DNA from: Methanococcoides methylutens | GTDB taxonomy: Archaea > Halobacteriota > Methanosarcinia > Methanosarcinales > Methanosarcinaceae | Assembly: GCF_000765475.1 (NCBI RefSeq) | Contig: NZ_JRHO01000009.1 | Location: 186,001 to 250,000 of the forward strand | Length of the DNA stretch: 64,000 nucleotides | Direction of reading: 5' to 3' | Shown here: positions 39,979 through 53,066 of the stretch, piece by piece | Position numbering within the stretch: the first letter of the stretch is position 1 | Layout: every line of letters begins with the position of its first letter | Program-made: the position numbers and the translations under genes | Notes under the pieces: generated by a model | The model's database searches: none | Told to the model about the DNA's origin: nothing | Seen by the model: only the letters and a program-made list of their open reading frames with translations

Positions 39979-40348
39979 GATGTTTGATTATGTGGGGGGT
40001 GGTATAAAATTATGTCTTCTTAGGGCGTGTATTTGTGGATGCATGGATGCAATATCTAAAAGTTCACAAAAAAGATATTAAGTTAATTGCTGTGTATACG
40101 AACTTTATTACTTGGAGATTTGCTTCCGCTTTTTTTGTATTTCTGCTTATGTGCATATGCATACTTCTAACAGGATCTGTTTATTCATAATTGATAGTTT
40201 GATGCTGTCTATTTTTGTATTTTTACTAACCGTTCAGTTCTGTTAACTTACTCGTTTATATAATATCATTTATTAATATTTACTTTGGGAGGTAGTGGGT
40301 TATGTGCATCTTTGCACTTAATACTAAAATTGAATATGGGGTGTGCCA
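39979..40348. other. AT-rich intergenic region before the surface-polysaccharide island
   Basis: About 370 bases with no protein-like frame. It contains long A/T stretches and several TATA-like words (for example TTTATATAATATC near 40255-40267) suited to the promoter of the GT2 gene, ending in GGGGTG before its ATG. No repeats or RNA genes were seen. Confidence 0.5.
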
Positions 40349-41890
40349 ATGAATGTTGTGGCAGCCATTCCTGCATACAATGAAGAGGTTAACATCAAGC
40401 ACCTCATTAAAAGAACGAAGCTCTATGTGGATAAGATCATTCTTGTTGATGACGGGAGTAGCGATGCGACAGCCTATATTGCTAAGAACATGGGTGTGCA
40501 GGTGATCAGGCACGGTGATAATCTTGGCAAGTCTGCGGCATTGGCAACAGCTTTTGAAGAAGCGAAAAAACTAAACCCCTCTGTGCTTGTGACTATCTAT
40601 GCGAATGGTTTTCACAATCCTGATGATATCCCTTCAATATTGAATCCTGTGCTTTCTGGGGATGCGGATGTTGTGAATGGTGCTTATGTCACTTCATCGG
40701 GCATTGGCTTTGACACTGCTTTCGAGTATGCGAAGGCTACAGACAAGAACAAGTTTTTCATGAGCAGTGGTTTCCGTGCGTATTCTTCAAAAACACTCGA
40801 TGTTTTCAATTTCACAAAGGGTGATGATGCTATTGAGGTGGAGTTAATAGATGATGCTGTCAAGTCCGGTTTTAAAGTGCGTGAGGTGCCCATCAAGATA
40901 ATCGATCCGGTCAAGAGAGAACTGCTGGCGAGCAAACGCATAGGTGTGGTAGTTCCTGCGTATAATGAGGAGAAGCTTTTAAAAGCTACTGTTGATGGCA
41001 TTCCCCATTACGTCGACCGGATCTATGTGATAAATGATGCGAGCACTGATAATACTGCAAAGGTCATTGAGGCATTGAATGACCCCAGGATATTCGTTAT
41101 AACCCACGAGATCAACAAAGGTGTGGGTGCTGCAATTGTCAATGGCTACAAGCAGGCACTGAAAGAAGAGGTGGATGTCGTTGCGGTAATGGCAGGGGAT
41201 AACCAGATGAATCCTGCCCAGCTTCCAAAGCTGCTTATACCCATTATCGAGGGTAGGGCTGATTATACTAAAGGCAACCGCCTGTTCAGTGAGGAGTACC
41301 GCGGGGGCATGAGCGGATTGCGCCTGTTTGGCAACTCGATTTTAACTTTCATCACAAAGATCGGAAGCGGATACTGGAATATCATGGATCCTCAGAATGG
41401 CTATACTGCCATCTCAAAGGAAGCACTGGCAGAGATCGGTTTGGATGAGATCTACACGTACTACGGCTACTGTAACCATATTCTTGTAAGGTTGAATGCA
41501 TTTGGTTTCCGGACCCTTGATGTGGTCATGCCTGCCAGATACGGAAAAGAGAAGTCGACGATCAAGTACGGTCCGTACATCGGCAAGGTGTCGCTCATGC
41601 TGTTCAAGAAGTTCCTCTGGAGGTTGAAGATGAAGTACATGATACTCAACTTCCATCCACTCGTCTTGTTCTACATACTCTCCATGTTCCTCCTTCCTGT
41701 AGGTGTGCTGCTCGGTATGGCAATACTCATAGCCTGGCTAATGCAGTGGTCAGTATCTTCAAATCTTCCAATACTTGATGCTTTTATACTTGTTTCAGGT
41801 ACTCAGTTCCTGCTTTTCGCAATGCTTTTCGATATGCAGGAGTCAGATAAAGATATGAGAGGCGAGAACCGGTTGTATGGCGATTATTGA
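40349..41890 (+). CDS. Tandem family 2 glycosyltransferase with C-terminal membrane helices
   Basis: This 513-residue protein has two GT-A (family GT2, dolichyl-phosphate-sugar synthase-like) domains in tandem. Domain 1 (about 1-190) has AIPAYNEE and VDDGSSDAT but reads YANGFHNPDDI (84-94) where the metal-binding DxD is expected, so both acidic residues are gone. Domain 2 (about 197-420) has VVPAYNEE, INDASTDNT and MAGDNQMNPAQL, keeping one Asp, plus a GYTAISKEAL acceptor-side region. Two membrane helices lie near 430-500. It probably transfers a sugar to a lipid carrier or glycan at the inner membrane face using domain 2, with domain 1 non-catalytic. GGGGTG supports ATG 40349. Confidence 0.8.
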   Translation: MNVVAAIPAYNEEVNIKHLIKRTKLYVDKIILVDDGSSDATAYIAKNMGVQVIRHGDNLGKSAALATAFEEAKKLNPSVLVTIYANGFHNPDDIPSILNPVLSGDADVVNGAYVTSSGIGFDTAFEYAKATDKNKFFMSSGFRAYSSKTLDVFNFTKGDDAIEVELIDDAVKSGFKVREVPIKIIDPVKRELLASKRIGVVVPAYNEEKLLKATVDGIPHYVDRIYVINDASTDNTAKVIEALNDPRIFVITHEINKGVGAAIVNGYKQALKEEVDVVAVMAGDNQMNPAQLPKLLIPIIEGRADYTKGNRLFSEEYRGGMSGLRLFGNSILTFITKIGSGYWNIMDPQNGYTAISKEALAEIGLDEIYTYYGYCNHILVRLNAFGFRTLDVVMPARYGKEKSTIKYGPYIGKVSLMLFKKFLWRLKMKYMILNFHPLVLFYILSMFLLPVGVLLGMAILIAWLMQWSVSSNLPILDAFILVSGTQFLLFAMLFDMQESDKDMRGENRLYGDY

Positions 41891-41924: not shown

Positions 41925-42431
41925 TCAGTTCCTGTGCTTGTACACAATGAACAGGACAATTAACAGGCCAATAACTTCAGAAATCAGGCCAAAAGAAAAG
42001 TCAGGACTGTAAACATGTTTCACGATGTTCATGAAATATTCCAGAAAGCTCCCATAAGAGTTTCCCTGAGCAAATTCCCACCCAAAGACCGGCCAGAAGA
42101 ATGTCTGTGGAGTCATCCACATCCGGTCTTCCAGCAGATGCAGGAAACTGGCTCCGGCCACAAGCAGGATTCGGGAATCTCCTCGCTGCCTGAAATAAAC
42201 ATATCCGGCAATCAGGATTACAATAACAAAAACAAGAGTGTGTGCAAAAATCCTTCCACTTGCAAAAATATCTTCAAAAAAGATCCTGCCTACGGGCTTG
42301 TCTATAAGGTCCGGTAGCAGGGCTCCCAATGCAATGAAGCGGTAATTAAGATGACGTTTGAGAGAAGGAATAGCAAGGCTTGCAAGGAAGAATACGGCGA
42401 GAGTTATTCCAATATGGCCAAGGATAAACAT
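41925..42431 (-). CDS. Membrane-bound metal-dependent hydrolase-like protein (DUF457/YdjM type)
   Basis: This 168-residue protein with about four to five helices matches the YdjM/DUF457 family: N-terminal FILGHIGITLAV (His near 6), GALLPDLIDKPVGR (about 37-50, with the Asp pair), FAHTLVFV (about 63) and FLHLLEDRMW (about 97). These His/Asp residues are the proposed metal ligands. Members have been suggested to be membrane hydrolases, without firm substrates. It is divergent from the deacetylase gene, sharing a 72-base promoter region. Confidence 0.75.
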   Translation of the reverse strand: MFILGHIGITLAVFFLASLAIPSLKRHLNYRFIALGALLPDLIDKPVGRIFFEDIFASGRIFAHTLVFVIVILIAGYVYFRQRGDSRILLVAGASFLHLLEDRMWMTPQTFFWPVFGWEFAQGNSYGSFLEYFMNIVKHVYSPDFSFGLISEVIGLLIVLFIVYKHRN

Positions 42432-42503: not shown

Positions 42504-44189
42504 ATGCTTAATATCGATGATTGCGATTTTACGATCAACAAGTTTCGGCTTCTCTGTGAGGCAATAGTTTCAACGTATCCAACGATTACAATGGCAGAAT
42601 ACATGAGTAATAAGCATCCTGCTAGGTTTATACTGATGCGTCATGATGTTGACCGGATGCCGGGAAATGCACTGAAAACTGCACTTATCGAGCATGAATT
42701 TGGCATCAAGGCAACATACTATTTCAGATCGATCAAAAGTGTTTTCAAGCCTAGGATAATGAAACAGATACAGGATATGGGTCATGAGATCGGTTATCAC
42801 TATGAGACATTAAGTGAGGCAAATGGCGACCCGGCTAAAGGAATTGAAATATTCCAATCCCATCTTGACGATTTCAGAAATATCGCCGATGTTAGAACCA
42901 TTTGCATGCATGGAAGTCCTTTGTCAAGATATGATAATCGTGATCTATGGAAATTCTATAATTTTGAGGATTTTGGAATTCTCGGTGAAGCATATTTGTC
43001 GATTGAAGATGACCTTAATTATTTTACAGATACAGGAAGGACCTGGCTTTTTGGCAGTGGTATAAGAGACTATATTCCCGGAAAAAAAGAACATCTTATC
43101 GCCAATACAACCGATGACCTTATTGAATTAATAAAAATGAATAAATTCGATAATTTTTACATTGTTGCACATCCGGAAAGATGGTCTTCAGGTGTTATTG
43201 AATGGAGTCTATATTATTCAATGGATATATTATTTAATATTGGGAAAAAAGTTTTGATGGGATTTGGTGATGCGGATCTTCACATGGATGAGAGGAACAA
43301 TCGTAGTATATCAATTACAGTAGACATTGAAGACTGGTATCATATCCCTTCTGTTTGCGGATCTGATTTTTCTGTTTACAAAAATGTAGATGATTTCTTT
43401 GAAAGGTGGGGGAAAAGGTACGATTATTTAAGTGAACCAACAAAAAAAATACTGGATCTTCTTGATGAATTTAATGTAACCGCCACATTTTTTGTTGTTG
43501 CAGATGTTGCAGAACATTACCCTGGTTTAATTGAATCAATTTCCGAAAGGGGTCATGAGATTGGATGCCATGGAGCTCATCATTCATGCAAGATCAATCC
43601 TAAGACAAAAGAACCTCTGATGACCATTAAGGAATTTGAGGATGAAACATTGGAGGCAAAGCAAACACTTGAAAAAGTATCTGGTAAAAAAGTAATTGGA
43701 TACCGTGCACCAAATGCCGTAGTTACAGGGGAAATGCTTGATTCACTTGAAAGAATTGGATTCAAGTACGATTCGTCAGTCTCTGTAAATTCCCTTTATA
43801 ATAAAACAGATTCTTCTTTGAGGGGTGTCTCGTCTGTACCTTACCATCCAGCTCCATGTAGTCTAGAGCCTGGTGGAAACAGAACTTTCGTTGAATTCCC
43901 ATGGTCTTATTATGATATAGGGGCAAAGATTCCAACATCAGGCGGTCCTATGCTAAGGTTTTTGGGTAGCCAGGTCATCCTGAAAGGACTAAAACAGAGT
44001 TTGAATAGAGGACATACAATATTTTATTTCCACCCGATCGATATTTCTAATGAAAAATTCCCAGATGTAGGGAGGGGAAGACCATTCTATTGGGCAGTAA
44101 AAGGGGATATTGTTGAAAAAAGGATTCGCCACGTGTTGAAAAATTTAGAACATATTGATAAAATTCCCCTGAAAGACTTAGTGAGGTAA
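42504..44189 (+). CDS. Double polysaccharide deacetylase-like protein, XrtA/PEP-CTERM-locus type C-terminal half
   Basis: This 561-residue protein contains two NodB-like modules. The N-terminal one (about 40-265) has RHDVDRMPG (46-54) and GHEIGYHYETL (93-103) with a C-terminal VAHPERW. The C-terminal one (about 270-555) has VDIEDWYHIP (273-282), GHEIGCHGAHH (about 350-360), YRAPNA (about 398) and FPWSYYDIG with IFYFHPIDI, matching the layout of polysaccharide deacetylases of bacterial XrtA/PEP-CTERM loci including their DUF3473 tail. It likely removes N-acetyl groups from a glycan. No signal peptide is visible, so the location is uncertain. Translation of the next FemAB-like gene starts 4 bases later. 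Confidence 0.8.
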   Translation: MLNIDDCDFTINKFRLLCEAIVSTYPTITMAEYMSNKHPARFILMRHDVDRMPGNALKTALIEHEFGIKATYYFRSIKSVFKPRIMKQIQDMGHEIGYHYETLSEANGDPAKGIEIFQSHLDDFRNIADVRTICMHGSPLSRYDNRDLWKFYNFEDFGILGEAYLSIEDDLNYFTDTGRTWLFGSGIRDYIPGKKEHLIANTTDDLIELIKMNKFDNFYIVAHPERWSSGVIEWSLYYSMDILFNIGKKVLMGFGDADLHMDERNNRSISITVDIEDWYHIPSVCGSDFSVYKNVDDFFERWGKRYDYLSEPTKKILDLLDEFNVTATFFVVADVAEHYPGLIESISERGHEIGCHGAHHSCKINPKTKEPLMTIKEFEDETLEAKQTLEKVSGKKVIGYRAPNAVVTGEMLDSLERIGFKYDSSVSVNSLYNKTDSSLRGVSSVPYHPAPCSLEPGGNRTFVEFPWSYYDIGAKIPTSGGPMLRFLGSQVILKGLKQSLNRGHTIFYFHPIDISNEKFPDVGRGRPFYWAVKGDIVEKRIRHVLKNLEHIDKIPLKDLVR

Positions 44190-44193
44190 TTGT

Positions 44194-45225
44194 ATGGATT
44201 TTGAGATAAAACAATTGAAACTAAAAGATGAAATGAGGTGGGATGATTTTGTCATGAAAAATGGCAGCACTACTTTTTATCATCAAACTGGATGGAAAAA
44301 CGCCATCCAAGATACCTATAATCATAAACCATATTATTTATTTGCTGAAAATGAAGTGGGGGAAATAGCTGGTATTTTTCCACTGTTCTATACAAACAAT
44401 CTATTTTTTGGGAAACGCTTTGTATCTGTTGCATTTGCTCCTTATGGCGGAGTTTGTGCTGATAATGAAATTATTGAGAAAAGATTAATTGATGAAGCAA
44501 TTGATTTAGGGAACAAGTTGAATGTGGATTATTGCGAATTTCGATGCTTGGATGAAAACAATACTCATGAAAATATGAGTTGTTCAAAAAACTGTTCTAC
44601 TTTTATTTTAGACATTTCAAAAGGACATGAATGCATCTGGAATAATATGAACAGAAATGTCAGAAATAGAATAAGAAAAGGGCTAAAAAGCAATTTAAAT
44701 TATGAAATGGATTCCAGCTTGAATTCATTATCCACATTCTATGATTTGTATGCCAGAAGTATGAAGCGTTTGGGTACGCCGCCTCATGATATCAATCTTT
44801 TTAGAAATATTCATAAGCAATTTCCTGACAACGTCTTTATTTCAAAAGCAGATCTAGGTGATATTCCAGTATCTTCTTTTTATTTAATAACGTTTAAAAA
44901 TACATTGATTACTGCATGGGGTGCATCTTTGTCTGCATATTTTAAACTTGCACCTAATGATTTCATGTACTGGAATTGCGTTAAGTATGCATCTGAAAAC
45001 AATTTTCGATGTGTTGATTTTGGTAGAAGTCTGAATAATTCCGGTAATGAGGTATTTAAAACCCGATGGGGTTGTGATGTCATTCCATTGAGCTGTTATT
45101 GTTATCCTCCATCAAAGATGATTTCACCACAAGACAAATATGGAAAATTGTCAAAATTTTGGACTAAATTACCCTTACCTCTGGTAAATAAAATTGGTCC
45201 GAAGGTTAGGGGTGTTGTGCCATGA
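44194..45225 (+). CDS. FemAB-like GNAT acyltransferase (first copy)
   Basis: This 343-residue protein shows the FemAB/lipid II aminoacyltransferase-like double-GNAT layout. The first half has FYHQTGWKNAI and a hydrophobic core YYLFAENEVGEIAGIFPLFY, with a FAPYGG turn. The middle carries a basic helix NRNVRNRIRKGLKSN (about 152-166). The second half has YWNCVKYASENNFRCVDFGR and FKTRWGC. This pattern matches the FemAB subfamily tied to XrtA/PEP-CTERM exopolysaccharide loci, found beside deacetylases. Known relatives add amino acids to cell-wall precursors from aminoacyl-tRNA; the donor and acceptor here are unknown. It starts 4 bases after the deacetylase stop. Confidence 0.78.
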   Translation: MDFEIKQLKLKDEMRWDDFVMKNGSTTFYHQTGWKNAIQDTYNHKPYYLFAENEVGEIAGIFPLFYTNNLFFGKRFVSVAFAPYGGVCADNEIIEKRLIDEAIDLGNKLNVDYCEFRCLDENNTHENMSCSKNCSTFILDISKGHECIWNNMNRNVRNRIRKGLKSNLNYEMDSSLNSLSTFYDLYARSMKRLGTPPHDINLFRNIHKQFPDNVFISKADLGDIPVSSFYLITFKNTLITAWGASLSAYFKLAPNDFMYWNCVKYASENNFRCVDFGRSLNNSGNEVFKTRWGCDVIPLSCYCYPPSKMISPQDKYGKLSKFWTKLPLPLVNKIGPKVRGVVP

Positions 45226-45355: not shown

Positions 45356-46540
45356 ATGATACCAGTTTCCCAGGCACCTATTTATATTCGGGAGATTTTG
45401 AAGACAGTATTTGCTTATTCTACAAATTATTCAACTGAATCCAGAGATTTTCAAGATCAAATTTCCAATTATTTGGGGTGCAGGCATATAAATCTCACAA
45501 GTTCTGGATTTTCTGGTTTATACTCTATATTAAGGTCTTCCGATTTGAAAAAGGGTGATGAGGTAATTGTTCCTGCATATACGTGTGAAGATGTTCCAAG
45601 ACTTGTTATTGAGATGGGTTACAAGGTTAAATTTGTTGATATTGAGCCTTGCACTTGTAATATGGACCCAATCGATCTCCATGATAAAATTTCAAAAGAC
45701 ACAAAGGTTGTGATTGCAGCCCATATGTTTGGTTATCCGTGTTCCATAGTTGATATTACAGAAACTTCCCATGATTATGGTGCTATTGTAGTTGAAGATT
45801 CCTGTCAATCAATGGGTGCCGAATACAATGGTAAGAAAGTAGGTACTTTTGGGGATGTCGGGTTATTCAGTCTGAATATGGGTAAACCCATCTCTACTAT
45901 TCATGGTGGAATAATTTGTACTAATAATAAGGATTTTTCTGAAAAGATATCGGCAATTATTGCTACTTTTAATGACTGTAGCATAATGCAACAAATGAAT
46001 ACTTTTGCACATCTTATCGGATACTCATTTTGTAATAATCGCAATTTTTATTCACTAATTTATAAGTTGATTGGAGAAAAACATCCTAATTCGTATTTTG
46101 AGATTCAGGACTTAATGTATAAATTCACAGAATTTCAATCAATTTTGGGCATACAACAATTATCTAAGTTAGATACCTTTAACAATATAAGAATCAAAAA
46201 TGCGAACTACTTAATGGATAATTTGAAGCCGTATGGGTTGTTTTTTCCAAAAATATCTAAGCAAACAAAACCTATTTTTTTACGTTTGCCAATTTATTTT
46301 GAAAATGTAAACCGGGCAAATAGAAATAAAATTATAACCATGTTTAAGCATTCGGGGATAGAAATCACTCCTTATTTATTAAGGGAGTCGCTTCCATTTT
46401 TATTTGCTGAAGGCTCTACAGACTATCCAAGGGCTGATAGAATGACAAGCAATACGTTAACAATTCCAACTCATCCTGGATTGACGAATGATAATCTTGA
46501 TCAGATAATAGATTTATTGAATAATCGGGTTGACATATGA
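45356..46540 (+). CDS. DegT/DnrJ/EryC1/StrS family aminotransferase
   Basis: This 394-residue PLP enzyme is expected to put an amino group on a nucleotide-linked ketosugar. It has the N-terminal LTSSGFSGLYSIL region (cofactor phosphate), DEVIVPAYTCEDVPR (about 66-80), VVEDSCQSMGAEYNGKKVGT with the PLP-nitrogen Asp (about 147-166) and FSLNMGKPIS with the candidate Schiff-base Lys (about 180), followed by GGIICT. The usual SF-x-x-x-K context is slightly altered. It is an aminosugar-forming step that fits the deacetylase and FemAB genes around it. It has its own AGGAG ribosome binding site and 130 bases of upstream AT-rich DNA. Confidence 0.85.
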   Translation: MIPVSQAPIYIREILKTVFAYSTNYSTESRDFQDQISNYLGCRHINLTSSGFSGLYSILRSSDLKKGDEVIVPAYTCEDVPRLVIEMGYKVKFVDIEPCTCNMDPIDLHDKISKDTKVVIAAHMFGYPCSIVDITETSHDYGAIVVEDSCQSMGAEYNGKKVGTFGDVGLFSLNMGKPISTIHGGIICTNNKDFSEKISAIIATFNDCSIMQQMNTFAHLIGYSFCNNRNFYSLIYKLIGEKHPNSYFEIQDLMYKFTEFQSILGIQQLSKLDTFNNIRIKNANYLMDNLKPYGLFFPKISKQTKPIFLRLPIYFENVNRANRNKIITMFKHSGIEITPYLLRESLPFLFAEGSTDYPRADRMTSNTLTIPTHPGLTNDNLDQIIDLLNNRVDI

Positions 46541-46605: not shown

Positions 46606-47643
46606 ATGAGAATTTTAGTTCAAATCGGCCATCCTGCACATGTACATTTTTTCAAAAATTTCATGTGGGAAGCTCAAAAAAGTGGTCATGAAATATATAT
46701 AAGTGCAATCGATAAAGAAGTTACTCTGGATCTTTTAAGAAAATATAATTTTAGTTATGAGGTTTCTGAGAAAAAGAGAACTAATTTCTTTGGAAATGTA
46801 ATTCAGTTAGTAAAAGGGGATTTGAAAACATACAAAATGCAAAGGCAACATAATGTAGATCTTATTATTGGAATCCCCAATGAATTTGGAGCACATGTTT
46901 CTAAAATAACAAAAGCAAAATCAATTGGTTTTACAGATACGGAGCATGCAAAATTATCAAATTTAATTACTTTTCCGTTTATAGATGTAATTTGTACTCC
47001 ATCCTGTTACAAAAAAAATATTGGAAAGAAACAAATTCGATATAATGGTTATCATGAACTTGCATACTTGCATCCCAATTATTTCACTCCAAATCCAGAA
47101 GTTTTGGATGAGCTTGGATTGAACAAAGATCAACCATTTATAATTTTGCGTTTTGTCTCCTGGAATGCGAGTCATGATGTTGGACAACATGGTATAAATA
47201 ACAAAATTAAATTTGTAAGGGAGCTTGAAAAATATTGTAAAGTATTAATTACTTCAGAAGGTGAGTTGGATGATGGGTTGGAGAAGTATCGCATAGAAAC
47301 ATCACCTGAGAAGTTACATGATTTGTTGTATTATGCAAGTCTGTATGTTGGAGATGGGGCAACAACGGCAGTTGAAAGTGCAATTCTTGGCACTCCTTCG
47401 ATCTATGTTTCATCGCTTGTTGGTACAATGGGTAATTTTATAGAGCTCGAAAATAATTATGGTTTAATATTTAATTATAATGATCCTGATAAAGCTCTGG
47501 ATAAAGCGGTTGATCTTATTCAAAAACCAAATCTAAAAGAAGATTGGAAACTGAAAAGAGAGCAATTATTGAAAGATAAAATTGATGTAACTGCATTTAT
47601 GCTGGAATTAATAGAAAGTTATCCAAACTTCTCACAAGTTTAA
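46606..47643 (+). CDS. DUF354 family glycosyltransferase-like protein (first copy)
   Basis: This 345-residue cytoplasmic protein of the DUF354 family shares the GT-B / UDP-GlcNAc 2-epimerase-like fold. It begins with MRILVQIGHPAHVHFFKNF. The nucleotide-binding C-terminal half includes LHDLLYYASLYVGDGATTAVES (written here as LHDLLYYAS then VGDGATTAVES), GTPSIYVSSLVGTMGNFIEL and a central ILRFVSWNASHDVGQHG. Function is unproven; the fold suggests a nucleotide-sugar-using enzyme. It is closely similar to the second copy at 48894. A GGGGGTT ribosome binding site precedes the ATG. Confidence 0.82.
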   Translation: MRILVQIGHPAHVHFFKNFMWEAQKSGHEIYISAIDKEVTLDLLRKYNFSYEVSEKKRTNFFGNVIQLVKGDLKTYKMQRQHNVDLIIGIPNEFGAHVSKITKAKSIGFTDTEHAKLSNLITFPFIDVICTPSCYKKNIGKKQIRYNGYHELAYLHPNYFTPNPEVLDELGLNKDQPFIILRFVSWNASHDVGQHGINNKIKFVRELEKYCKVLITSEGELDDGLEKYRIETSPEKLHDLLYYASLYVGDGATTAVESAILGTPSIYVSSLVGTMGNFIELENNYGLIFNYNDPDKALDKAVDLIQKPNLKEDWKLKREQLLKDKIDVTAFMLELIESYPNFSQV

Positions 47644-47833: not shown

Positions 47834-48889
47834 GTGAAAATTGTTTTAACTGGGGGTAGGAAAATAACAACAATAGTAACGAATGTTGGGAAAGAAGAAT
47901 GGGAATATTTTTTGGATAATTCTAATGCTGCTACCATATATCACACTCCTCAATGGAAAACATTTTTGGAAAAAACGTTCAATTATGAGTCAAATTATCT
48001 ATTTGCAAAAGATGAAAATGACAATATCACTGGATTATTGCCTTTATTCTATGTTAAAAGCAAATTGACTGGTAATCGACTATGTTGTGTTCCTTTTTCT
48101 CATAGGTGTGGTATCCTTGGTGAAATTAATATTGTAAAATCTTTAATTGATGAAGCGATGAATTATTTTGAAAGCACAAATGCTCATTATTTTGAAATAA
48201 GGGATAGTGTTAGTTCTCCTCTTTTTGAGACGCAAAATTATTATTCAACTTATGTTTTAGATGTCTCTGATAATGTAGAAAACTTGTGGAAAAATTTATC
48301 TAGTAATGCTAGAAGGGCAACTAGAAAATCTGAGAAACTTGGTCTAATTGCTCATCAAACTGATGATCCTCATGCACTAAAATATTTCTACAAGCTAAAC
48401 TCTATGACTAAAAAGGAGCTTGGAGTCCCCTGCCATCCGTGGAAATTTTTCAAAAATATGTTTGATATTTTGGGCAATAATGTATCTCTCTATGTTGTGG
48501 AATATAATGATGAAATAATTGCAGGTGGAATTAGGGAATATTATAAGGATACAATCATTGCAGGATATGCTGCATCTCACCCTGAATATAAACACATGAA
48601 CCCCTATAATCTATTGAATTGGAAATCTATACAAGACGCATCAAATAATGGATATCAATACTATGATCTGGGGAGGGTCTCATATCAAAATGAAGGGTTG
48701 ATGTTTTTTAAGTCTAGATGGGGGACAATTGAAAAAAAGCTCTACTATTCTTACTTTCCAAAAAATCCAAAATCTTTAACTGATAACAGAAGTGGTTTTC
48801 TTTACAATATTGGAACAAAAGGAATTAAAAAAATGCCGATGTCGTTATATGAACAGTTTAGTAACAACATTTTTTCAAAATTCGGGTGA
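47834..48889 (+). CDS. FemAB-like GNAT acyltransferase (second copy)
   Basis: This 351-residue paralogue of the protein at 44194 has the same landmarks: TIYHTPQWKTFLEKTF, YLFAKDENDNITGLLPLFY, the basic segment LSSNARRATRKSEKLG (about 155-170), and LLNWKSIQDASNNGYQYYDL with FFKSRWGT near the C terminus. The identity is modest, so the duplication is not recent. The start is uncertain: GTG at 47834 is the only in-frame conventional start near the beginning, while GGGGGTAGG (47852-47860) lies inside that frame. The conserved part begins near residue 16. The second DUF354 gene starts 4 bases after the stop. Confidence 0.75.
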   Translation: MKIVLTGGRKITTIVTNVGKEEWEYFLDNSNAATIYHTPQWKTFLEKTFNYESNYLFAKDENDNITGLLPLFYVKSKLTGNRLCCVPFSHRCGILGEINIVKSLIDEAMNYFESTNAHYFEIRDSVSSPLFETQNYYSTYVLDVSDNVENLWKNLSSNARRATRKSEKLGLIAHQTDDPHALKYFYKLNSMTKKELGVPCHPWKFFKNMFDILGNNVSLYVVEYNDEIIAGGIREYYKDTIIAGYAASHPEYKHMNPYNLLNWKSIQDASNNGYQYYDLGRVSYQNEGLMFFKSRWGTIEKKLYYSYFPKNPKSLTDNRSGFLYNIGTKGIKKMPMSLYEQFSNNIFSKFG

Positions 48890-48893
48890 TTTT

Positions 48894-49934
48894 ATGAAAA
48901 TTATTGTAGAAATGGGTCATCCTGGCCACGTCCATCATTTCAAAAATATGATCTGGGATCTAGAAAAAAAGGGTCATAAGGTACAGATTTGTACGATGGA
49001 TAAAGAGGTTACCTTGGATCTGTTAGATAAATATGGTTTTACTTATGAAGTTCTAGGTAAAAACAAATCTAGCGGAATTATACGTAAATTTCCTCTCCTT
49101 ATTGGTGCGGAATTGAAAATGTACTTGATTTCCAAGAGGTTCAATCCAGATTTATTTATATGCAGGGGTTCTCCGATTTCGGCTCATATAAGTAGCATTT
49201 TCAGGAAACCATGCATTTCTTTCAATGATACTGAACATTCTTCATTAGTGGATTCCATAGTTTTCCCATTTTTAGATGTTGTACTGACTCCATCTTGCTT
49301 TATAAAAAATTTGGGCGGTAAGCAAATTCGTTACAACGGGTATCATGAACTTGCTTATTTGCACCCTTATAATTTTGGTCCCAACCCAGAAGTTCTCAAT
49401 GAGCTAAACCTCCGAGAAGGAGATACATTTATTGTCCTCAGATTTGTCTCTTGGAATGCAACTCACGATGTAGGCCAGCACGGTGTTCAAAATAAAGGTC
49501 AATTTGTCAAAGAACTTGAAAAATATGGTCGTGTTCTGATTACTTCTGAAGAAGATATTGGTTTGGAATTTGAAAAGTATAAGATTAATGTGTCTCCTGA
49601 TAAGTTGCATGATCTGCTATATTATGCTACCCTATGTGTTGGTGATGGTGGCACAACTGCAGTCGAAAGTGCAATTCTAGGAACTCCCTCGATTTATGTT
49701 TCATCTCTTGTTGGGACAATGGGTAATCTAATTGAACTCGAAGACAAATATGGATTATTATTAAATTTTAATGATTCTGATGAAGCTTTGGGTAAAGCAG
49801 TTGAGCTAATTCAAAAGCCAAATCTTAAAGAAGATTGGAAATTTAAAAGGAATCATTTGTTGAGAGAAAAAATAGATGTAAATGCATTCATGGTCGGTTT
49901 TGTAGAAAATTACTCTAATTATTTACATTTATGA
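48894..49934 (+). CDS. DUF354 family glycosyltransferase-like protein (second copy)
   Basis: This 346-residue close paralogue of the protein at 46606 shares MGHPGHVHHFKNM, MDKEVTLDLLDKYGF, FNDTEHSSL, QIRYNGYHELAYLHP, LRFVSWNATHDVGQHG and the C-terminal GTPSIYVSSLVGTMGN. GGGTGAT (48882-48888, spanning the FemAB stop) is the ribosome binding site for ATG 48894, so the two genes are translationally coupled. A longer in-frame extension into the FemAB gene is rejected for that reason. It probably acts on a related sugar intermediate, or is a variant for a second glycan. Confidence 0.82.
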   Translation: MKIIVEMGHPGHVHHFKNMIWDLEKKGHKVQICTMDKEVTLDLLDKYGFTYEVLGKNKSSGIIRKFPLLIGAELKMYLISKRFNPDLFICRGSPISAHISSIFRKPCISFNDTEHSSLVDSIVFPFLDVVLTPSCFIKNLGGKQIRYNGYHELAYLHPYNFGPNPEVLNELNLREGDTFIVLRFVSWNATHDVGQHGVQNKGQFVKELEKYGRVLITSEEDIGLEFEKYKINVSPDKLHDLLYYATLCVGDGGTTAVESAILGTPSIYVSSLVGTMGNLIELEDKYGLLLNFNDSDEALGKAVELIQKPNLKEDWKFKRNHLLREKIDVNAFMVGFVENYSNYLHL

Positions 49935-51794: not shown

Positions 51795-53066
51795 ATGTTC
51801 AGTTTAAAACTAAGCAAGACCATGATGGATGTCCAATGGGCTTTTGTTAGTCTTGCAACGGCTTCCTTTGCACACCTTTTGCTTCGCATGGTACTTGGCA
51901 GAGAACTGGGTCCATCAGGGCTTGGAGTGTATACTCTGGTTTTTACTGTATACATGTTTGGTATGCAGTTTGCAGCATTTGGAATTGGTTCAGCGTTGAC
52001 AAAGTATGTTGCCGAATTCAACGAGGACCTCTCAAAAAGAAATAAATTTATTTCATCCGGTATCGTTGGATCTTTAATATACGGGTCTTTAATGGGATTG
52101 TTGCTGTATCTTTTATCAGACACCATTGGTATAGGTTTTTTCCACAATCCCGATATTGTAGGTCTATTGAGAATTACTGCACTTTGCTTGCCTTTTATAG
52201 CCTTACAAAAAGCCGTTGTAGGTACTCTTAATGGTTTGAGAAGCATGAAATTATATGCTTTTGTAAACATTATTCAAAATGTTTCGGTGATGGTTGTTTC
52301 TATTGTTTTTGTGATACCACTGAACATGGCTGTTAAAGGTGCTGTAATTGGGTTTGTTTTGCCAACAATTGTAGTGGGTCTATTATCATTGATTATTGTC
52401 AGGACCTATTTTACAGCTGGATCAACAATCTTGGGAAAAGCCCTAAAAGAATTATCATGGTTTGGATTCTACATTGTTCTTGCAAACTCTGTAGGACTTC
52501 TTAACACAGAGATCGATAGTTTGCTGATAGGACATTATCTTAATGAGGTGGAAGTAGGTTATTATGCAGTTGCGGTAATCCTGGTTCAAGGGTTAAGTCT
52601 GATCCCAATGTCTGTTCATAGGATCACATATGCTGCAAGTGCAAATTACTATGTAAAGAATGATTATGAGAATTTATCCAATCTACTAAAAAATAGTTTT
52701 TTGAAAGTATTTTTAGTTACCATGCTTATATCTGCTGTATTGGTTTTGTTTGGTCAGTTCATAATCAGACTTTTGTTTGGAGAAGATTTTTTATTCGCCT
52801 ACAAACCTCTGTTGGTTCTATTAATTGGTTACTCTCTATATTATCCTATTCATTCTATTACCAGTGTTCTTTCAGGAATGGGTAAGGTGACTTTGGTATT
52901 TAGGATAGCTTTACTATGTGGTTTGACTAATATCCTCCTCAATATTCTCCTAATCCCTGAATTTGGTATATTGGGAGCTGCAATTGCCACTTCAATTGGA
53001 TTGATATTTGCAGCATTAGTTAGGGCACATTTTATATACAAATATACTAAAAGTATGTATGGTTGA
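51795..53066 (+). CDS. Oligosaccharide flippase (Wzx/MOP superfamily)
   Basis: This 423-residue protein has about twelve hydrophobic helices and no soluble domain, consistent with the polysaccharide-transporter branch of the MATE/MOP superfamily. The N-terminal LLRMVLGRELGPSGLGVYTL matches the conserved loop of this family, and the middle helices contain LNTEIDSLLIGHYLNEVEVG, a family hallmark. It would flip lipid-linked glycan units across the membrane. TAGGGTAAT is the ribosome binding site. TTATATATAG at about 51624-51633 is a likely promoter element, so it may start a second transcript. Confidence 0.85.
   Translation: MFSLKLSKTMMDVQWAFVSLATASFAHLLLRMVLGRELGPSGLGVYTLVFTVYMFGMQFAAFGIGSALTKYVAEFNEDLSKRNKFISSGIVGSLIYGSLMGLLLYLLSDTIGIGFFHNPDIVGLLRITALCLPFIALQKAVVGTLNGLRSMKLYAFVNIIQNVSVMVVSIVFVIPLNMAVKGAVIGFVLPTIVVGLLSLIIVRTYFTAGSTILGKALKELSWFGFYIVLANSVGLLNTEIDSLLIGHYLNEVEVGYYAVAVILVQGLSLIPMSVHRITYAASANYYVKNDYENLSNLLKNSFLKVFLVTMLISAVLVLFGQFIIRLLFGEDFLFAYKPLLVLLIGYSLYYPIHSITSVLSGMGKVTLVFRIALLCGLTNILLNILLIPEFGILGAAIATSIGLIFAALVRAHFIYKYTKSMYG

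Follow-up and report, generated by a model that had tools for sequence, protein, structure and literature searches.

A single gene of the window, by which we mean the whole 64,000-nucleotide stretch of Methanococcoides methylutens DNA that was analysed, encodes two polysaccharide deacetylase-like modules in one protein, and we consider it reasonably probable that this gene arose by fusion, probably a single time, from two dissimilar CE4-superfamily amidohydrolases that act in the cytosol, and that it belongs to a Methanosarcinaceae surface-glycan cluster. The fused gene is a new domain architecture of a known kind, one half of which belongs to an unnamed subfamily with an altered metal site, and not a new kind of system; the literature library searched contained no paper on tandem NodB domains or DUF3473. 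The gene and its parts are as follows.

42504..44189, + strand: fused gene, 561 aa, RHDVD-family CE4-like module plus DUF3473-type polysaccharide deacetylase, ATG to TAA
42504..43259, + strand: N-module, residues 1-252, RHDVD-family CE4-like barrel, solo in most relatives (AF2 model, Foldseek, relatives, invariant residues)
42639..42656, + strand: N-module motif 1, R46-H-D48-V-D50-R with the Asp pair (RHDVDR, residues 46-51); H47 and D48 in 99 of 99 rows, D50 in 98 of 99
42780..42806, + strand: N-module motif 2, GHEIG-Y-H99-Y-E101 (GHEIGYHYE, residues 93-101); the canonical second His (+4) is L/M/V/F
42906..42914, + strand: N-module motif-3 position, M135-H136-G137; H136 in 99 of 99 rows, right after strand 132-134, candidate replacement ligand
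43029..43031, + strand: N-module D176, motif-4 position; 98 of 99 rows, right after strand 172-175
43170..43184, + strand: N-module motif 5, H223-P-E-R226-W227 (alignment of 99 rows)
43260..43304, + strand: linker of about 15 aa; residues 251-265 have pLDDT < 50
43305..44186, + strand: C-module, residues 268-561, NodB deacetylase of TIGR03006/XrtA type (PF01522, TIGR03006, PDB 3rxz)
43320..43343, + strand: C-module motif 1, V-D274-I-E-D277-W-Y-H (VDIEDWYH, residues 273-280; from the alignment)
43551..43583, + strand: C-module motif 2, GHEIGC-H356-G-A-H-H360, HxxxH (GHEIGCHGAHH, residues 350-360); H356 and H360 invariant in 9 rows
43854..44150, + strand: DUF3473 tail, residues 451-549 (39.1 bits)

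The same fusion, 561-583 aa in length, is present in at least 10 other genomes. In five pairs dN/dS was 0.10-0.14 for the N-half and 0.03-0.16 for the C-half, and both halves are under purifying selection. A fusion produced by a frameshift or an assembly artefact is ruled out, since the same architecture is repeated across many independent genomes with low dN/dS.

The C-half is, judged from its sequence, a canonical polysaccharide deacetylase of the XrtA/TIGR03006 kind with a DUF3473 tail, and its activity is predicted. It scores 82 bits against PF01522 (curated cut-off 23.1), being the only PF01522 match in the genome (2.5 Mb, 15 contigs), and 39.1 bits against DUF3473 (cut-off 29.6); the N-half has no DUF3473 match, and the tail is thus found only in the second half, as the sequence-only reading had it. 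The D-x-x-D (VDIED), HxxxH (HGAHH), RAP and FHP motifs are all present, and the metal triad is complete, made up of the motif-1 Asp (D274/D277) with H356 and H360. Among PDB sequences the C-half matches 3rxz (E 2e-11), and the solved structures nearest to it are polysaccharide and peptidoglycan deacetylases. As a gene of its own, about 307 aa long, the C-family is found in other Methanosarcinaceae and in more distant archaea. The domain order, the motifs and the DUF3473 tail are those of the XrtA-system deacetylase (TIGR03006, PF01522 plus DUF3473), which goes with a TIGR03019 FemAB, and here too a FemAB-type gene lies directly downstream of the deacetylase gene; the fused protein differs in carrying an extra N-terminal CE4-like module. 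With 128 bits against an equivalog cut-off of 276.2, the C-half is not itself a TIGR03006 equivalog. Membership of an exosortase/PEP-CTERM system was considered and ruled out, as exosortase PF09721 was not found in the genome and its single archaeosortase is about 170 kb from the glycan cluster. In two relatives (L160, G153:C1:3252083; L161, G232:C1:873980) a solo N-type gene has a second archaeosortase gene about 1 kb away, an arrangement that recalls bacterial exosortase-exopolysaccharide clusters.

The N-half (residues 1-252) gave no significant match in Pfam, NCBIfam or PDB sequence searches; its 14.1 bits against PF01522 are below the cut-off of 23.1, which, with that of DUF3473, is exceeded by the C-half. 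Among aligned N-family members, 17 of 22 match PF01522 at E <= 1 (best E 1.3e-4). The AF2 model of this half, built from 22 relatives (pLDDT 87.4, pTM 0.88), predicts a NodB-type distorted barrel, CE4-like, and its best Foldseek PDB matches are CE4 NodB domains (prob 0.97-1.00), with modest TM values of about 0.35-0.55. When the N and C profiles are compared, they match with Prob 93 over the region of strand 2 and motif 2, and a low-confidence extension of the match covers about 220 columns at 20% identity. With PF01522 on the C-half and a CE4-like barrel model for the N-half, the proposal of two deacetylase-type modules in one protein is supported.

The fold of the CE4/NodB enzymes (PDB 3rxz, 3qbu, PdaA, Bc1974) is common to both halves. 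The C-half has the full motif set; the N-half shares the Asp pair, GHEIG-x-H and the motif-5 His, but is without the second motif-2 His and the motif-3 Arg-Pro, having an invariant H-Y-E and M-H-G instead. Across 99 N-relatives R46, H47, D48, H99, Y100, E101, H136, W149, D189, H223, P224 and W227 are invariant, D50, E162, D176 and R226 have one exception each, and the second His of HxxxH is found in none (0/99), the +4 residue being L, M, V or F. Because this His is absent, the classical His-His-Asp triad of the N-half cannot be complete. The sequence-only reading had given each half its own Asp pair and His motif with the ligands for a metal; this is correct for the C-half, whereas in the N-half the Asp pair and one His stand and the second His does not. 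E101 and H136 are natural candidates to fill the site, and the alternative metal ligands may be sought among H99, E101, H136 and H223. It may be, and we put this forward tentatively, that the N-half represents a widespread unnamed CE4 branch, both bacterial and archaeal, whose metal site differs (H-x-E and a motif-3 His in place of HxxxH) and whose chemistry possibly differs too. Such chemistry, if real, would remove a different N-acyl group or have a lipid-linked or nucleotide sugar as its substrate, and the fusion to a canonical deacetylase would be among the few direct clues to the function of the N-family. A further PDA-like protein of 351 aa (THDIDD, HGGYY, LWHN), seemingly also without the second motif-2 His, is encoded at L040:13514-14569.

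Lacking the canonical second metal His, the N-half could also be a CE4 pseudoenzyme without catalytic activity that binds sugar or holds the C-half in place, and its top Foldseek match, 7bkf, together with two others of the top six, is the CE4 pseudoenzyme BA3943 or one of its mutants. That top match is weak (TM about 0.4), however, and unlike BA3943 the N-half retains invariant polar residues at active-site positions: about 16 polar and aromatic residues at CE4 catalytic-motif sites vary hardly or not at all in bacteria and archaea, in solo and fused copies. The low N-half dN/dS (0.10-0.14) and the fact that the N-module mostly occurs alone, with no C-half to support, also speak against a dead enzyme, which we regard as unlikely. 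Rather less likely still is a metal-independent hydrolase of the kind of PuuE allantoinase, which has the NodB fold without a metal and shows that loss of metal dependence is possible (PMC10967932). The HxxxH pair is indeed not kept in the N-half, but this half has no sequence or structural preference for PuuE, and the PuuE matches that were found stem from the C-half or from the full-length model, which has a set of best matches similar to that of the C-half. The sequence-only reading had allowed for either two different substrates or a processive double removal. It is very improbable that the modules take two acetyl groups off the same chain in one processive cycle; covalent linkage would fix their proximity, but the full-length model (pTM 0.48) gives neither a confident orientation of the two domains nor a confident interface between them, and this part of the proposal is without support. 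Two different substrates are the better reading, because each module exists elsewhere as a separate gene and close relatives have lost one half or the other.

The same fold twice in a row might suggest an internal duplication within one gene, but the halves are up to 69% and 71% identical to stand-alone genes of their own families and only about 20-24% identical to each other over the alignable part. An internal duplication is therefore rejected, and we give it almost no credence, since each half comes from a CE4-superfamily family of its own, and both families are found as independent genes; that the halves are diverged, and joined by an old fusion rather than by a fresh duplication, was correctly proposed. 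On the C tree the 12 fused copies form one clade with G290 and L064 (96/82), and these two unfused exceptions (G290 at L153, 10527-10649) both keep N remnants. On the N tree a single 20-row clade (99/92) contains the 12 fused copies, and three of its unfused rows (L034, L054 and L055) still carry 36 residues of C; solo N copies of the same genus (L036-L038) may be later losses or unfused sisters. Either tree requires three changes of the fused or unfused label, as would follow from one gain and two losses, more gains being formally possible. As the fused copies form one clade per tree and unfused members keep fragments of the lost half, a single fusion followed by losses is the simplest history, and most likely the fusion arose once in Methanosarcinaceae and was then broken several times. 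The downstream solo N genes of fused loci form a separate clade beside the fused N, so that N was probably duplicated and one of the copies joined to C. An origin by simple deletion or read-through between neighbours is not favoured, because C usually precedes N in unfused clusters, the opposite of the order in the fusion. At L151 (G175:C112), L150 and L152 several short fragments, taken mostly from the beginning of N and the beginning of C, recur along one contig, as in a pseudogene array or a recombination reservoir.

The fused gene lies among the following genes.

40343-41890: two-domain family-2 glycosyltransferase, upstream of the fused gene
41925-42431, opposite strand: small gene between the glycosyltransferase and the fused gene
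44194..45225, + strand: FemAB-like acyltransferase (FemAB1) of TIGR03019 type, 4 bases after the fused gene (244.8 bits, just below the cut-off of 260)
45356..46540, + strand: DegT-family sugar aminotransferase
46606..47643, + strand: DUF354 protein (a)
47834..48889, + strand: second FemAB-like acyltransferase, of the type found after solo N genes in several relatives
48792..49934, + strand: DUF354 protein (b)
51795..53066, + strand: Wzx-type flippase, which would fit the export of a lipid-linked glycan

A beta-helix protein is encoded between the second DUF354 gene and the flippase, and the two PF13480 and two DUF354 genes of the genome are all in this cluster. The glycosyltransferase is a tandem fusion of two family-2 domains, its N part like PpgS/dolichyl-phosphate hexose transferase and its C part like AglJ; shorter relatives of about 316 aa are found in L046 and L069. 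A FemAB1-type gene directly follows a C-family gene in the window and in L033, L064, L150, L153 and L155, a conserved order that marks the FemAB-like gene 4 bases downstream as the putative partner of the C-module. The order nodB-femA is also that of a bacterial exopolysaccharide/biofilm cluster in Rubrivivax (PMC3684757), and the deacetylase-FemAB pair of bacterial exopolysaccharide clusters is thus conserved in archaeal glycan clusters. No FemAB gene was detected near the fused gene in L039, L040, L041 and L060, and since these loci have the fusion, de-acylation followed by re-acylation is not universal. A strict coupling of two deacetylases to two FemAB proteins, suggested by the two of each in the window, is broken in L039-L041 and L036-L038.

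Neither a signal peptide nor a hydrophobic span is evident in the fused protein, whose mean hydropathy over 19 residues reaches at most 1.14. Both halves are therefore expected to act in the cytosol, probably on sugars linked to a nucleotide or a lipid, ahead of glycan export by the Wzx-type flippase. The C-half would be a metal-dependent N-deacetylase that takes the acetyl group off an N-acetylated sugar and exposes the amine, which FemAB1, to judge from the conserved pairing, would probably re-acylate with an amino acid. The N-half would be another amidohydrolase, alike in its barrel and Asp pair but with a changed metal site, in which the one motif-2 His, probably with E101 and/or H136, takes the place of the HxxxH pair, and it would act on a different N-acyl sugar or at a different step. 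NodB-fold enzymes that act on non-polymer amides include ArnD deformylase and PuuE allantoinase, neither of which has a specific sequence match to the N-half. ArnD is a precedent for a lipid-linked substrate. Most likely, then, both halves are predicted cytosolic amidases that act on glycan intermediates with different substrates. The fusion would mainly fix the ratio of the halves and co-localise them, and it appears dispensable, as each half also occurs on its own and has been lost without the other.

The fusion is a Rosetta stone in that it ties the unannotated RHDVD family, with hundreds of loci labelled hypothetical, to a canonical polysaccharide deacetylase; being fused to such an enzyme in the same cluster, the family gains a testable function and residues to mutate. 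By sequence comparison the N-half belongs to a separate, mostly stand-alone archaeal and bacterial family that is missed by Pfam and NCBIfam. Of 295 genomes sampled from the phylum, 65 contain a member of this family, as do at least 580 stretches in the collection of bacterial and archaeal genomes, and members on haloarchaeal and Spirosoma plasmids are annotated as hypothetical protein. The best 78 of these 580 or more loci come from Methanosarcinaceae, Methanomicrobiales, Halobacteria, Altiarchaeota, Bacteroidales, Chloroflexi, Legionella and others; among these 78 a DUF354 gene lies within about 5 kb in 48, a FemAB gene is present in 28 (directly downstream in 21), and a C-type deacetylase, fused or separate, in 17. 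N and C are separate genes of the same cluster in L064, L085, L094, L050 and L092. The L064 contig is labelled as a Desulfobacteraceae MAG and its cluster is almost identical to archaeal ones, which points to a binning error or lateral transfer. In a genome of the same genus (G032), a second, solo N-type gene (L032:8620-9396) has one in-frame TAG (IE*ELGI) and is otherwise intact, paralogues having Lys, Glu or His at this position; as PylS is present in both G032 and the genome of the window, the TAG may encode pyrrolysine or have arisen by a recent nonsense mutation.
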